DNA from: Candidatus Epulonipiscium sp.
GTDB lineage: Bacteria; Bacillota; Clostridia; Lachnospirales; Defluviitaleaceae
Assembly (NCBI GenBank): GCA_012519205.1
Contig: JAAYQR010000021.1
Span: forward strand, 1-47,049
DNA length: 47,049 bases
Direction: 5' to 3'
Made by a program: the position numbers and the translations under genes. The notes beneath the pieces were generated by a model. That model did no database searches, was not told the DNA's origin, and saw only the letters and a program-made list of their open reading frames with translations. Below are positions 15,203 through 20,764 of this stretch, in pieces. How positions within the stretch are numbered: the stretch's first letter is position 1; each line of letters begins with the position of its first letter.

Positions 15203-15805
15203 TTAAATTTTAATTTTCATAATAAATTCTCTAATTTTTTCTCCGTCTTTTTTACCATCTGTTTCTACCCCTGAGCTTACATCTACAACTTGGGGTTGTA
15301 CTTCATCCATAGCGGCTCTTATGTTTTTGCTGTTTAATCCCCCCGCCAGGATTATAAAATGGTTTTTTGATACGCCTTTTATCAAATCCCACGAAAAGGT
15401 TTTTCCAGAGCCTCCGCTGCTGCTATCAAATACAAACCCATCTACAGCCTTATAGTCTTCTAATAAAGTAGGTTCTAGCTTTTCTTTGATTGAAAATGCT
15501 TTCCATACTGGGACTATGGATTTTGAGCACTCCTTTGGCCTTTCACTTCCGTGAAGCTGTACTATATCTAAATTACAATATTTTATCAATTGGTTCACCT
15601 CTTCTATGGGAGTATCTACAAATACTCCCACAGCTTTTATATCATGTCTTAAAAGAACTTTCATTTCTTTTGCAATATCTGGGGATATCCTTCTTTTACT
15701 TTTTGCAAATACAAGGCCTATATAATTTACATCATATTTATTTATCATTTTTATCTGTTGTGGACTTTTAAGTCCGCAAATTTTTATTTTAGGTATTGTA
15801 AGCAT
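15203..15805 (-). CDS. trpF: Phosphoribosylanthranilate isomerase
   Basis: Isomerises N-(5'-phosphoribosyl)anthranilate to CdRP, the third step of tryptophan synthesis. The 200-residue TIM barrel shows KICGLKS with the catalytic Cys at the end of strand 1, the GVFVDTP segment, VQLHG, and the phosphate-binding ILAGGLNSKN and VDVSSGVE. The ATG overlaps the end of trpC by 17 bp and has AAAGGAG inside trpC, so translation is probably coupled. It is the last gene of the trp operon; trpB and trpA do not follow. Confidence 0.95.
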   Translation of the reverse strand: MLTIPKIKICGLKSPQQIKMINKYDVNYIGLVFAKSKRRISPDIAKEMKVLLRHDIKAVGVFVDTPIEEVNQLIKYCNLDIVQLHGSERPKECSKSIVPVWKAFSIKEKLEPTLLEDYKAVDGFVFDSSSGGSGKTFSWDLIKGVSKNHFIILAGGLNSKNIRAAMDEVQPQVVDVSSGVETDGKKDGEKIREFIMKIKI

Positions 15806-16568
15806 CCCTAAACTCCTTTGTTTTTTTATCGATATCTTCTGACTTCATAAAGCTTTCCCCTACTAAAACTCCATTGATATTGGCTTTTTTGAGTTTAATT
15901 ATGTCTTCTTTGTATAAAATGCCACTTTCGCTTATTATTAGCTTATCTTTAGGTATTTTCCTACTTAGGTTTATGGTAGTGTTTATATCTACTTTAAAGT
16001 CTTTTAGATTTCTATTGTTAATTCCTATTATAACTCCATTGGTATTAAGGACCCTTTCTAGTTCCAGTTCATCATGAACTTCTATCAAAGCATCCATATA
16101 AAGAGAATGAGTAAGATTTATATACTCTTTAAGTTTACTATCATCTAATATAGAAGCTATGAGTAGTACGGCACTAGCCCCTAAAACCCTTGCCTCGTAG
16201 ATTTGAATGGGGTCTATTATAAAATCCTTTCTAAGCAAAGGTAGATTTGTTTTTTCATGGATTTCCTTGAGATAGCTAGAAGAACCTAAAAAGAATTCTT
16301 CTTCTGTTAAAACAGAAATAGCATCCACACAGGTTTCATATTGTTTTGCTATTTCTATGGGGTTAAAGTTTTCCTTAATAATACCTTTGGAAGGAGAGGC
16401 CTTTTTAACCTCTCCTATAATAGACAGATTTGGTTTTGCCATAGCCTTATAAAAAGATGGTGGGGCTTTTTTAAGTTTTGCTTTTTCTTCTAAAAAAGAA
16501 ATAGTCACGCTTTTTTTGAATTTTTCTACCCTTTCTTTTTTCCTTTTTACTATTTTATCTAATATCAT
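15789..16568 (-). CDS. trpC: Indole-3-glycerol-phosphate synthase
   Basis: Closes the indole ring from CdRP, releasing CO2 and water. The 259-residue protein has the usual IGPS motifs: GEVKKASPSKG with the catalytic lysine, VLTEEEFF, LPLLRKDFI with the second lysine, ALIEVHDELEL, GINNRNL, and SESGI near the phosphate site. All expected catalytic residues seem present. Its ATG overlaps the trpD stop by 4 bp, indicating coupled translation. Confidence 0.96.
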   Translation of the reverse strand: MILDKIVKRKKERVEKFKKSVTISFLEEKAKLKKAPPSFYKAMAKPNLSIIGEVKKASPSKGIIKENFNPIEIAKQYETCVDAISVLTEEEFFLGSSSYLKEIHEKTNLPLLRKDFIIDPIQIYEARVLGASAVLLIASILDDSKLKEYINLTHSLYMDALIEVHDELELERVLNTNGVIIGINNRNLKDFKVDINTTINLSRKIPKDKLIISESGILYKEDIIKLKKANINGVLVGESFMKSEDIDKKTKEFRDAYNT

Positions 16569-17581
16569 AACAATCTCCTTGTATATTCTCTAAATTCATT
16601 TAGCTTTCTAAGAACATATCCTTCTTCTATAAGTTCCTTGGCTAAGTCTATTCCTTCTTCGATGTTTTTTGCCTTTTTTCCTACGTAGAGAGCAGCTCCT
16701 GCATTTAAAAGAACGATGTCTCTTTTGGGCCCTTCTCTCCCTTCTAAAATTTCCCTTATTATTTCTGCATTTTCTAAGGAATCCCCCCCACTAATCTCTT
16801 CTTTTTTACAAATTTTTATTCCATATGCCTCGGGGGATATATAGTAAGTTTTTATTTCCTTGTTTTTAAGTTCTGTTACTTTAGTTTTATCCATTATAGT
16901 AATTTCATCAAGACCATCCATTCCATGAACCACCATAGCGTGGTCTACCCCTAGATTAAGAAGAGCCTGTGCCATGGGTTCCGTTAAATTTTCATCAAAT
17001 ACCCCTAATACTTGTGATTTGGCATTAGCTGGATTTGTAAGGGGGCCTAGGATATTAAATATGGTTCTAAAACCTAATTCTTTTCTTGGAGCTATGGCAT
17101 ATTTCATTGCTTTATGGAAAGTTGGAGCAAATAAAAAACCTATATTATGAGCTCTAATACATTCTTCTACCTGACTTGGAGTAAGGGCAATATTTACCCC
17201 TAGGGCCTCTAAGACATCAGCGCTACCACTTTTACTAGATACGGAACGGTTGCCATGCTTAACCACATATATTCCTGCTGCCGCTGCTATAAAAGCTACA
17301 GCTGTAGATATATTAAAAGTTCCTGCACAGTCCCCTCCAGTTCCACAAGTATCTAGGGTATAGTAATTATCTAATTTAATTCTCTCAGCTTTGTTTCTCA
17401 TCACTATGGCACCACCAGTAATTTCATCTGGGGTCTCTCCCTTCATCTTAAGGGCTGTTAGAAAACTTCCAATTAAAATGGGGGATACTTCTCCTCCCAT
17501 AATACTTTCCATGGCATTAATCATTTCTGATTCTGTTAAATGTTTTCCTTCTAAAACCCTTTCAACTGCATCTTTTAACAT
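16565..17581 (-). CDS. trpD: Anthranilate phosphoribosyltransferase
   Basis: Transfers the phosphoribosyl group of PRPP to anthranilate. The 338-residue length is typical. The PRPP-binding glycine loop is seen as DTCGTGGDCAGTFNIST, followed by KHGNRSVSSKSGSADVLEALG-type signature positions, and HNIGFLFAP and VVHGMDGLDE further on. It is a stand-alone TrpD, not fused to TrpG. Its start overlaps the trpG end by 7 bp. Confidence 0.96.
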   Translation of the reverse strand: MLKDAVERVLEGKHLTESEMINAMESIMGGEVSPILIGSFLTALKMKGETPDEITGGAIVMRNKAERIKLDNYYTLDTCGTGGDCAGTFNISTAVAFIAAAAGIYVVKHGNRSVSSKSGSADVLEALGVNIALTPSQVEECIRAHNIGFLFAPTFHKAMKYAIAPRKELGFRTIFNILGPLTNPANAKSQVLGVFDENLTEPMAQALLNLGVDHAMVVHGMDGLDEITIMDKTKVTELKNKEIKTYYISPEAYGIKICKKEEISGGDSLENAEIIREILEGREGPKRDIVLLNAGAALYVGKKAKNIEEGIDLAKELIEEGYVLRKLNEFREYTRRLL

Positions 17582-18153
17582 ATAAGACTCTCCTTTCTTA
17601 AGAAATTTTCTACTATTTTAATTCCATCGGGGGTATATATGGATTCTGGGTGAAATTGCAATCCCACTAGGTGATATTCCCTATGTGAAATTGCCATCAC
17701 TTCTCTATCCTCCGAAACTGCCCCTATTTCAAAATAATCCGGAATAGTATCTGTTCTAATTGCTAGAGAATGATATCTTACAACCTTCATGGGGTTTTTT
17801 ATCCCTTCAAAAATCCCTCTTCCTTTATGCATTATGATGGATGTCTTCCCATGAAAAAAGTCCCTTGCATAATCAATTTTAGCCCCGAAAGCTGCTCCTA
17901 TACACTGATGCCCAAGCCCTATACCAAGAATAGGGGTTTCCTTGTAAAGATTCCTTATTACCTCTAGGCATATACCTGCTTGTTTTGGAGTCTTAGGTCC
18001 TGAAGATATCACAATATGATTAGGATTTAACTTTTTGATTTCTTCTATGGATATTTCATCATTTCTGACCACTTTTATGTTTTTTTCATACCTACCTAAA
18101 TATTGGTATAAGTTATATGTGAAAGAATCATAGTTATCGATTAATAAAATCAT
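17575..18153 (-). CDS. trpG: Anthranilate synthase component II (TrpG-like), nucleophile Cys replaced by Gly
   Basis: By position and fold this is the class I glutamine amidotransferase subunit that should feed ammonia to TrpE. The 192 residues start LLIDNYDSFTYNL as usual, and the triad His168 and Glu170 are in place (LQFHPESI). However, the nucleophile elbow, normally G-V-C-L-G-H-Q, reads GIGLGHQ: residue 79, the site of the catalytic Cys in TrpG/PabA, is Gly (codon GGG at 17917-17919). The oxyanion loop, normally SPGPGxP, reads SSGPKTP at 50-56. With family knowledge I infer loss of glutaminase activity, leaving either a structural partner for an ammonia-dependent TrpE or dependence on another amidotransferase. 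The reading frame is intact and the gene sits tightly between trpE and trpD. Confidence 0.9.
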   Translation of the reverse strand: MILLIDNYDSFTYNLYQYLGRYEKNIKVVRNDEISIEEIKKLNPNHIVISSGPKTPKQAGICLEVIRNLYKETPILGIGLGHQCIGAAFGAKIDYARDFFHGKTSIIMHKGRGIFEGIKNPMKVVRYHSLAIRTDTIPDYFEIGAVSEDREVMAISHREYHLVGLQFHPESIYTPDGIKIVENFLRKESLIC

Positions 18154-18162
18154 AACATCCTC

Positions 18163-19548
18163 CTATCTTATAGCCTTAAATAAGGCTTTAACTTTGTTTT
18201 CACTTTCCTCATTTTCTTTTTCTGGATCTGAATCTACTACAATACCAGCTCCTGCCTGCATATATACTTTTCCATCCTTTATAACCATGGTACGGATTGC
18301 AATACACATATCCATATCTCCATCAAATCCAAAATACCCAATGGCACCCCCATAAAGTCCCCTTTTTTCTTCTTCCAACTCATCAATAATTTCCATAGCT
18401 CGAACCTTTGGGGCCCCTGATAGAGTTCCTGCGGGGAGAAATGAGTGAAGTATGGAAAATACATCCTTGTCTTCTTTTTTCTTTCCTTCTACTTGGGATA
18501 CCAGGTGCATAACATGGGAATAATAATGAACATTCATAAACTCTGTGATCTTTACGGAGTCAATACGGGCTATCCTTCCCATATCATTTCTAGCCAAATC
18601 CACCAACATCACATGTTCTGCCTTTTCTTTTTTATCTTCTAGTAAATCCTTAGCTAATGTTTCATCTTCTTTTTCGTCTTTGCCCCTCTTTCTAGTTCCT
18701 GCTATCGGACAGGTATAGACTTTATCTTTTCTAACTTCTACTAACATTTCCGGAGAGCTGCCTGCCACTTGATATTCTCCAAAGTTTAAGTAAAAAAGAT
18801 AGGGTGAGGGGTTAAGTCTTCTAAGTTTCCTATAAAGAGAAAAGGCATCCTCTTGGGTTTCTAGGGTCCATCTTTTTGATATTACTACTTGGGATATATC
18901 TCCTTCATGGATATATCTTTTGGCCTTTTTGACTTTTTCCATATATTCTTCCTTGGACATGTTGCTTTTTATGCTTTTAAATGATGAGCTAACCTTTGCC
19001 ATCTCCTTTGTTCCTACTTCATTTTTAAGCTCTTTTTCCATTAATGAAATTATCTTTCTTGCCTTTTCTTCGCCTTCTTTGGTATCTTCATCTAAAACTA
19101 TAAGATATATTTGCTGATGAAAATGGTCATAAGCTATTATCTCTTTGGCAAACACCAAATGTATATCGGGAGTTCCTATAGTATCTTTATTGGGCTCTTT
19201 CAACTTTTCGTATTGTCGTACCACATCATATCCTATAAATCCTACTGCTCCCCCTATAAAGGGGATGGAACTGGGATTTTGGATTTGAAAATGCGACATA
19301 TATTCCCTTAGAATCTCCATTGTTTTTCCTTGTTTCTTTCTTATCTTATTTCCTTCTTTTATGACGGTTTCATTTTTAATACTTTTTAGTTCCCCAAATG
19401 TGTTTTTTCCTATAAAGGAATACTGACCCTTTGTTCCATCCCTACTTTCTAGTAAAAATCCTTTTTCTTTACCCACATACTTTTGAAATATAGTTATGGG
19501 AGTGTTTGTATCTCCTACTATGGATTTTGAATATAACTTAAGTTCCAT
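18163..19548 (-). CDS. trpE: Anthranilate synthase component I
   Basis: Converts chorismate and ammonia to anthranilate and pyruvate, the committed step of tryptophan synthesis. The 461-residue protein has an N-terminal regulatory region with the LLES motif (in GFLLESRDG) that binds feedback-inhibiting tryptophan in this family. The chorismate-binding domain follows, with SPYLFYLNFG, GSSPEMLV, CPIAGTRKRG, PAGTLSGAPKVRAMEIID and the C-terminal QAGAGIVVDSDPEKE. It is the first gene of the trp operon, has ribosome binding site AAGGAGG, and lies behind a Trp T-box leader. The stop is 9 bp before trpG. Confidence 0.96.
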   Translation of the reverse strand: MELKLYSKSIVGDTNTPITIFQKYVGKEKGFLLESRDGTKGQYSFIGKNTFGELKSIKNETVIKEGNKIRKKQGKTMEILREYMSHFQIQNPSSIPFIGGAVGFIGYDVVRQYEKLKEPNKDTIGTPDIHLVFAKEIIAYDHFHQQIYLIVLDEDTKEGEEKARKIISLMEKELKNEVGTKEMAKVSSSFKSIKSNMSKEEYMEKVKKAKRYIHEGDISQVVISKRWTLETQEDAFSLYRKLRRLNPSPYLFYLNFGEYQVAGSSPEMLVEVRKDKVYTCPIAGTRKRGKDEKEDETLAKDLLEDKKEKAEHVMLVDLARNDMGRIARIDSVKITEFMNVHYYSHVMHLVSQVEGKKKEDKDVFSILHSFLPAGTLSGAPKVRAMEIIDELEEEKRGLYGGAIGYFGFDGDMDMCIAIRTMVIKDGKVYMQAGAGIVVDSDPEKENEESENKVKALFKAIR

Positions 19549-19579
19549 ACCCTTTCCTCCTTAAAATTTATTTAAACGC

Positions 19580-19616
19580 AAAAAAGCCCTTCATCCCAAA
19601 AATTGGGACGAAGAGC
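19580..19616 (-). terminator. Second trp leader terminator
   Basis: The arms run from AGCTCTTCGTCCC to GGGATGAAGGGCT on the minus strand, with a T-rich loop, followed by T6. It lies directly before trpE and follows the second T-box core (19629-19638). It is an attenuator with its own antiterminator partner. Confidence 0.85.
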
Positions 19617-19628
19617 TATCTTCGCTAT

Positions 19629-19910
19629 GCCACCCAATGAGCTTTAAGGTACTAAGTTGAACAAAAAAAGACATTCATCCTTTGGGATAAATGTCTTTAG
19701 CCACCCAATACATTAAGTATCATTTAATCCGATACGGAGTTTCCTCGATATCTTACCTCTATAACGGGAGGACCCGGCATCGGATACTTTTTACATTTCA
19801 CCTAGCATCTCATAGAACCATTCCTTAAAGTCTTTTGTATCGGACCTTACACCAACCGCCGACTCGCTTTAACAAAATCCTAAAAGTACTCTTCCTAATC
19901 ATGGATTTTA
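19629..19910 (-). promoter_or_regulatory. Tryptophan T-box leader with two T-box cores
   Basis: Reading the minus strand: an AGTA-type loop near 19886, the Stem I distal motif AAAGCGAGTCGGCGGTTGG (about 19852-19870), the specifier UGG (19818-19820, in GGAATGGTTC) for tRNA-Trp, and then the T-box core ATTGGGTGGC (19700-19709). The UGGC bulge is complementary to the GCCA end of tRNA-Trp. After the first terminator an identical ATTGGGTGGC core recurs at 19629-19638, 71 bp on, with only about 25 bases between terminator 1's T-tract and that core. That is too little for a second Stem I. One specifier domain therefore appears to control two antiterminator/terminator units. Confidence 0.88.
19663..19698 (-). 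terminator. First trp leader terminator
   Basis: The 14-bp stem AAAGACATTTATCC with GGATGAATGTCTTT (one G-U pair, loop CAAA) is followed by seven T residues on the minus strand. It immediately follows the first T-box core and is the attenuator of the canonical T-box unit. Confidence 0.88.
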
Positions 19911-19921
19911 GCCTTTTTAAT

Positions 19922-19950
19922 ATTATATTCGAATATTTGGAATTTGTAAA
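19922..19950 (-). promoter_or_regulatory. trp operon promoter
   Basis: On the minus strand TTTACA (19945-19950) and TATAAT (19922-19927) are 17 bp apart, just upstream of T-box Stem I. Between this and the cwlD end (about 19951-20066) I see no further feature. Confidence 0.85.
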
Positions 19951-20066: not shown

Positions 20067-20764
20067 TTAAGATTCCTTAAAGTAATCAACAATACCTACA
20101 TATATTGCCCAGGCAATTTTTTCTTGGTAGGTTTCATTGTTTAAATTGGATTCTTCTTCAGGATTTGTTAAAAACCCACATTCTACTATGACCGCTGGAA
20201 CCTCTGTGGTCTTTAGAACATAGTAATCCGTATTGGCTTTTGCTTCTCTTTTATTAGTGGGATCTACGAATTCCTTTAACTGATTTTGTATTATCTTTGC
20301 CAGTCTTTCGCCCTCTATGGAATGACCATGATAAAAACCTGGGCCCCCTTATATTTTGACTGAGAAAAGCTATTTTGGTGAATACTAACCAATATATCTC
20401 CCTCACTACTATTAATTAGCTCCTTTCTTCTTCTCATATCAGAACTCTTTTTTTTGGTATCTCCCTTTTCATTTAGCCCTTCATCCGTATTCCTTGTAAT
20501 AACCACATAAGCACCGCTTTGTTCAAGGTATGCTTGAAGCTTTAGTGCAATTGAAAGGTTAATATCCTTTTCATCTTTACCATTAATCCCCACCTTACCA
20601 GGATCAAATCCTCCATGCCCAGGGTCTATAACAATCACGTGTCTAGCTGTGGGAAGGGCGAAAGTGGTAACTGCTTTGGAAGAATACATATTATATCCTA
20701 AAAACAATACCAAAATAATCCCGACTCCTACATAAATTTTGGGGCTTTGGTTCCAAAAATTCAT
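20067..20764 (-). pseudogene. cwlD: CwlD-type N-acetylmuramoyl-L-alanine amidase, one-base frameshift
   Basis: In spore formers CwlD removes peptides from cortex peptidoglycan so that muramic lactam can form. The first frame (from 20764) encodes an N-terminal membrane anchor, VIVIDPGHGGFDPG with the first zinc His, the zinc Glu in DEKDINL, and VSIHQNS with the second zinc His, then breaks at about 20330-20334 and stops at 20315. The neighbouring frame continues perfectly with YHGHSIEGERLAKII, through AVIVECGFLTNPEEE with the catalytic Glu, to a stop at 20067. One extra T in the run of five T (minus strand) would restore about 232 residues, the normal CwlD length. This is a real mutation or a homopolymer sequencing error; conservation on both sides favours error or very recent loss. 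Confidence 0.85.

Follow-up and report, generated by a model that had tools for sequence, protein, structure and literature searches.

The leader of the trpEGDCF operon of Candidatus Epulonipiscium sp., located in the 47,049-nt window analysed here (the whole of the stretch read from contig JAAYQR010000021.1), is on balance probably a tRNA-Trp-responsive T-box in which a single tRNA-docking module is followed by two serial expression platforms, the spacer between them resets unit 1, and the same tRNA is retested at unit 2. This reading of the sequence draws on a spacer of about 25 nt which, in 12 leaders, is complementary to the first T-box core and to the stretch preceding it. The complementarity favours one tRNA being tested twice in series; of the two mechanisms offered by the first-pass annotation, it thus lends weight to the first, a single tRNA used successively at the two sites, and not to the second, in which core 2 would sense only the free acceptor end.

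Leader organisation and the trp operon

The minus strand encodes the Trp T-box leader, which is flanked by a promoter-like site and by trpE; the latter is preceded by the ribosome-binding site AAGGAGG near position 19560 (Table 1). Stem I with its specifier loop, the IIA/B region and the UGGN core fit the Rfam covariance model RF00230, a comparison that the first-pass annotation had proposed; the model matches positions 19911-19601 with an E-value of 1.6e-19. The score of 86.9 bits falls just below the gathering score (93), since core 2 is the one that the model takes and unit 1 is counted as an insertion, and the same reading of unit 1 explains the sub-threshold Rfam scores of double-unit leaders. 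The one Stem I with a UGG specifier that the annotation had recognised is present. The tRNA-Trp of the genome (locus L101) has the anticodon CCA, its 3' end ...CCCCU-G-CCA is encoded in the gene, and it fits both the UGG specifier and, via GCCA, the UGGC of the two cores.

The trp operon (15203-19548, minus strand) stops at trpF and is not followed by trpB or trpA; beyond trpF lie a SAM riboswitch (15128-15028) and then an O-acetylhomoserine sulfhydrylase-like gene. Upstream of the leader, a gene for a CwlD-type amidase is split (20068-20764, minus strand): the open reading frame 20764-20315 accounts for positions 2-107 of the 189-position model, and the C-terminal remainder is found in a different frame at 20318-20068, the result of either a frameshift in the gene or a fault in the assembly.

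Table 1. Features of the trp leader and operon (positions in the window)
Feature	Position	Strand	Remarks
Promoter-like site, TTTACA-17-TATAAT	19922..19950	-	11/12 consensus positions; consensus match only, shuffles of the region average 1.7 such sites
Stem I, single copy, with AG bulge and GGUUGGUG distal loop	19811..19905	-	Rfam RF00230 alignment
Specifier codon UGG (Trp), within GAA-UGG-UUC	19818..19820	-	RF00230 alignment; tRNA-Trp anticodon of the genome is CCA
Stem II, IIA/B region (CCGUUA) and Stem III region	19720..19810	-	RF00230 alignment; Stem III placed by eye
Bridge (reset) helix, predicted 5' arm: linker, A1 5' strand and UGGC of core 1	19700..19716	-	
Unit 1 antiterminator, AUUGGG-UGGC-...-CCCAA	19682..19709	-	A1 strong, A2 weak; -4.0 kcal/mol
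Terminator 1: hairpin 19698-19667 (14 bp), T-tract 19669-19663	19663..19698	-	-16.6 kcal/mol
Spacer, predicted 3' arm of the bridge (reset) helix	19644..19662	-	Complementary to core 1 and to the linker before it
Unit 2 antiterminator: AUUGGG, 7-nt bulge UGGCAUA, A2 GCGAAG/CUUCGU, CCCAAU	19602..19638	-	-12.5 kcal/mol; compensatory change in relatives
Terminator 2: hairpin 19617-19585 (15 bp), T-tract 19585-19580	19580..19617	-	-22.9 kcal/mol
trpE, first gene of the regulated operon	18163..19548	-	TIGR00564, 561.7 bits, over cut-off
trpG, trpD, trpC, trpF	15203..18153	-	trpG, trpD and trpC over curated cut-off; trpF from best matches below cut-off

Two serial expression platforms

Downstream of one Stem I and one Stem II/IIAB region, the leader contains two UUGGGUGGC cores (ATTGGGTGGC) that begin at 19709 and 19638 on the minus strand and are, as the first-pass annotation had noted, identical and 71 nt apart. 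Separate antiterminators and terminators accompany the two cores, and the folding energies of both terminator hairpins agree with the strong terminators that the annotation had reported. In 20,000 dinucleotide shuffles of the leader, two occurrences of TTGGGTGGC were never obtained, and three terminator-like sites were observed against 0.3 expected from shuffles. In both units CCCAA is common to A1 and the terminator, making the antiterminator and the terminator mutually exclusive, with trpE downstream, as in members of RF00230.

The distance from T-tract 1 to core 2, put at about 25 bases by the annotation, measured 25 nt, and unit 2 lacks a Stem I of its own, as had been claimed; a hidden second Stem I between the units is ruled out, the gap being too small to hold it. 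The leader therefore has the organisation of a duplicated terminator-antiterminator T-box, having a single Stem I ahead of two core/terminator units, and not that of a complete tandem T-box, in which a second Stem I would stand ahead of core 2. The A2 helix of antiterminator 1 is weak, and most leaders lack the ACC/GCG consensus in this unit, whose response to tRNA could therefore be poor.

Conservation of the double unit

The conservation in relatives that the first-pass annotation suggested looking for was found: the double unit precedes trpE in all eight genomes of the family examined (Defluviitalea relatives), including Defluviitalea phaphyphila and 'Candidatus Epulonipiscium' MAGs, and it precedes trp genes in at least five other clostridial lineages (L020, L054, L078 with trpB, L070/L091, and L090). 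A duplication confined to the source genome is ruled out by this distribution. In L078, which belongs to another clostridial family, the double-core Trp-type T-box is located immediately ahead of a trpB-like gene and has two N in Stem I. Most generic double-GGGTGG matches across the order and class turned out, on inspection of the sequences, to be repeats, chance matches or single T-boxes with a GGGTGG in another place, and these were discarded. Among the 17 T-boxes detected by Rfam in the genome, only the trp locus showed two tandem GGGTGG cores on the leader strand, a count that covers loci with a GGGTGG-type core and could miss divergent duplicates among the 17.

In four genomes of the family (G001-G004), core 2 reads UUGAGUGGC and its partner CUCAA, so that A1 of unit 2 has changed from UUGGG/CCCAA to UUGAG/CUCAA; this compensatory replacement of G-C by A-U argues for a working second antiterminator. 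In unit 1, all 12 leaders, which come from several families, retain UUGGGUGG, the A1 complement and terminator 1 together with the T-tract. Conservation supports both units. Outside the home family (L020, L054, L078, L070, L091 and L090) core 2 carries UGGU, with core 1 mostly UGGC; a G discriminator base, as read in the window's own genome only, would then pair as a G-U wobble at gate 2 and as a Watson-Crick pair at gate 1.

Predicted pairing between the spacer and core 1

The pairing of the spacer with core 1 first appeared on folding of the unit and was absent from the first-pass annotation. In comparison with shuffled spacers, pairing with the 24-nt linker and the 5' strand of core 1 gave a mean z of -2.9 and a Fisher p of 4e-13 over 12 distinct trp leaders, a value to which leaders of the same family contribute non-independently and which comes from the same 12 leaders that gave rise to the idea of the helix; with one leader per lineage, Fisher p was 2e-8 to 8e-7. 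The signal derives mainly from the A1 strand of core 1 (p 0.01 without this strand versus about 2e-8 with it), and no pairing signal of this type was found for an upstream control segment, for the 5' arm of terminator 1, or in eight single T-boxes of the same genome. Shuffling only the spacer within the whole segment gave Fisher p values of 6e-9 for bridge pairs and 2e-8 for energy. The isolated spacer is nearly unstructured in the 12 leaders (0 to -0.8 kcal/mol), and on this ground a second Stem III hairpin was rejected.

The read-through segment folds into a single long hairpin in all 12 leaders, with much of UUGGGUGGC buried in most of them, and the mean advantage of this hairpin over antiterminator 1 is about 15 kcal/mol after the spacer has been made and 10 before. 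In each of the 12 leaders the bridge helix stops 0-6 nt short of core 2. At 14 of 30 helix positions both sides have changed without loss of pairing, as counted on pairs taken from individual predicted folds, which favours pairing (a MAFFT alignment of the read-through segment misplaced the spacer); the shuffle tests therefore carry the weight. The bridge of the window is individually modest, with p 0.11 in the spacer pairing test and, in spacer-only shuffles, 0.03 (bridge pairs) and 0.21 (folding energy), so the claim of a bridge rests on the set of leaders. The fold of the window's segment has a z of -5.3 against dinucleotide shuffles, much of which is supplied by terminator 1 itself. Taken with these data, the spacer is predicted to be something other than a passive linker: it would fold unit 1 into a long hairpin and bring core 2 beside the shared upstream domain.

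In one leader (L097, from G001) the spacer is 46 nt long, compared with about 25-30 nt, with the pairing with core 1 kept, and extra sequence is present between unit 2 and trpE. Four further leaders of double or triple type, which are non-trp and come from another clostridial family, were also analysed, and the pairing was significant in two of the four, these two being nearly identical. The four (L069, on the minus strand, L105, L106 and L107) are T-box leaders situated before a sodium-solute-symporter-like gene, named by eye; L105-L107 have one Stem I and two cores, L069 has one Stem I and three cores, and the specifier looks like AUA or UAC.

Proposed mechanism and alternative explanations

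In the mechanism proposed here, uncharged tRNA-Trp would dock on Stem I via the UGG specifier, and its GCCA end would pair with the UGGC of core 1, stabilising antiterminator 1 and allowing RNA polymerase to pass terminator 1. The newly transcribed spacer, complementary to the linker and core 1, could then invade antiterminator 1; terminator 1 would refold harmlessly, and unit 1 would become locked as one long hairpin with its core buried. This would release the acceptor end of the tRNA and set core 2 beside the upstream domain, where the same Stem I-held tRNA may be tested again. Since the 3' arm of the bridge is made only after terminator 1 has been passed, it cannot affect the decision at terminator 1. 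Two serial tests separated by irreversible elongation would lower basal read-through and sharpen the decision between charged and uncharged tRNA. It is suggested, tentatively, that the spacer acts as a conserved reset strand that erases gate 1 once passed and thereby lets a single tRNA held on Stem I be tested a second time after irreversible elongation, as in a proofreading-like RNA switch.

The two units may instead work as serial gates without any hand-over, with unit 2 as a fail-safe that lowers leakage, the tRNA re-binding or a second tRNA from solution engaging core 2, and the helix merely keeping core 1 off the CCCAA of unit 2. Both terminators are strong, the bridge helix would provide insulation besides resetting unit 1, and the cores are identical, so that core 1 could cross-pair with unit 2. 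However, unit 2 has no docking element of its own, so any new tRNA would still need the one Stem I, and the helix end adjoins core 2 in every leader, as if for positioning; this explanation is considered rather unlikely. A different account, in which core 2 reads the acceptor end of a free tRNA without Stem I, could draw on the more complete second antiterminator, which is also the more stable of the two when folded alone (Table 1). The binding of tRNA by T-boxes depends on the docking modules Stem I and Stem II, specificity without Stem I would be reduced to the discriminator base, and a bridge helix bringing core 2 near Stem I/II would serve no purpose; such free sensing is therefore highly improbable.

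The weak A2 of unit 1 and the loss of its ACC/GCG consensus in most leaders would be expected if unit 1 were a decaying duplicate and regulation were exerted by unit 2 only. Against this stands the retention of the unit 1 elements in every leader, and a dead antiterminator ahead of a working terminator would switch the operon off, which makes decay of unit 1 quite improbable. The complementarity between the spacer and core 1 could also be a by-product of the duplication, the spacer being a copied Stem III hairpin and self-complementary as hairpins are, and the spacer of L105/L107 does resemble a second Stem III 3' arm. In the 12 trp leaders, however, the spacer alone has hardly any structure, and most of the signal comes from the A1 strand of core 1, with which a copy of Stem III would not pair, so that this origin appears improbable. 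The reset of unit 1 by the spacer, with one tRNA tested at both gates, is retained as the preferred reading; the undoing of gate 1 and repositioning of gate 2 by a conserved helix would offer a specific, testable route by which one tRNA could act at both gates and, if true, would represent a natural example of an RNA switch that checks one ligand serially.

Comparison with known T-box systems

The first-pass annotation left open whether this exact layout had been described. Vitreschak et al. (2008, RNA 14:717) reportedly recognised a T-box class with duplicated terminator-antiterminator elements in which, as in the leader analysed here, a single specifier (Stem I) domain precedes two terminator/antiterminator units. 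A review of 2020 names 'partially tandem T-boxes', which express the same idea, and calls their modes of action still unknown; the available part of that review gives neither an example nor a mechanism (PMC7583486). Partially tandem T-boxes have thus been known for years without a mechanism and, as the duplicated class has already been reported, the layout itself is not new. Neither a further account of the exact layout nor an earlier description of the bridge helix was found in the literature searched, the 2008 and 2009 accounts lying outside its reach.

Tandem T-boxes in which every unit is complete occur commonly on trp operons (PMC12452182), in agreement with the statement of the first-pass annotation. 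They share with the present leader two serial terminators, responsive to tRNA-Trp there and predicted to be so here, an arrangement thought to give a more switch-like response, but each of their units has its own Stem I and needs its own tRNA, whereas here Stem I is shared. With the canonical transcriptional T-box (RF00230) the leader has in common Stem I, Stem II, the IIA/B region, the core, and the alternative between antiterminator and terminator; unlike the canonical form, which has one expression platform and no bridge helix, it has two platforms and a predicted bridge between them.
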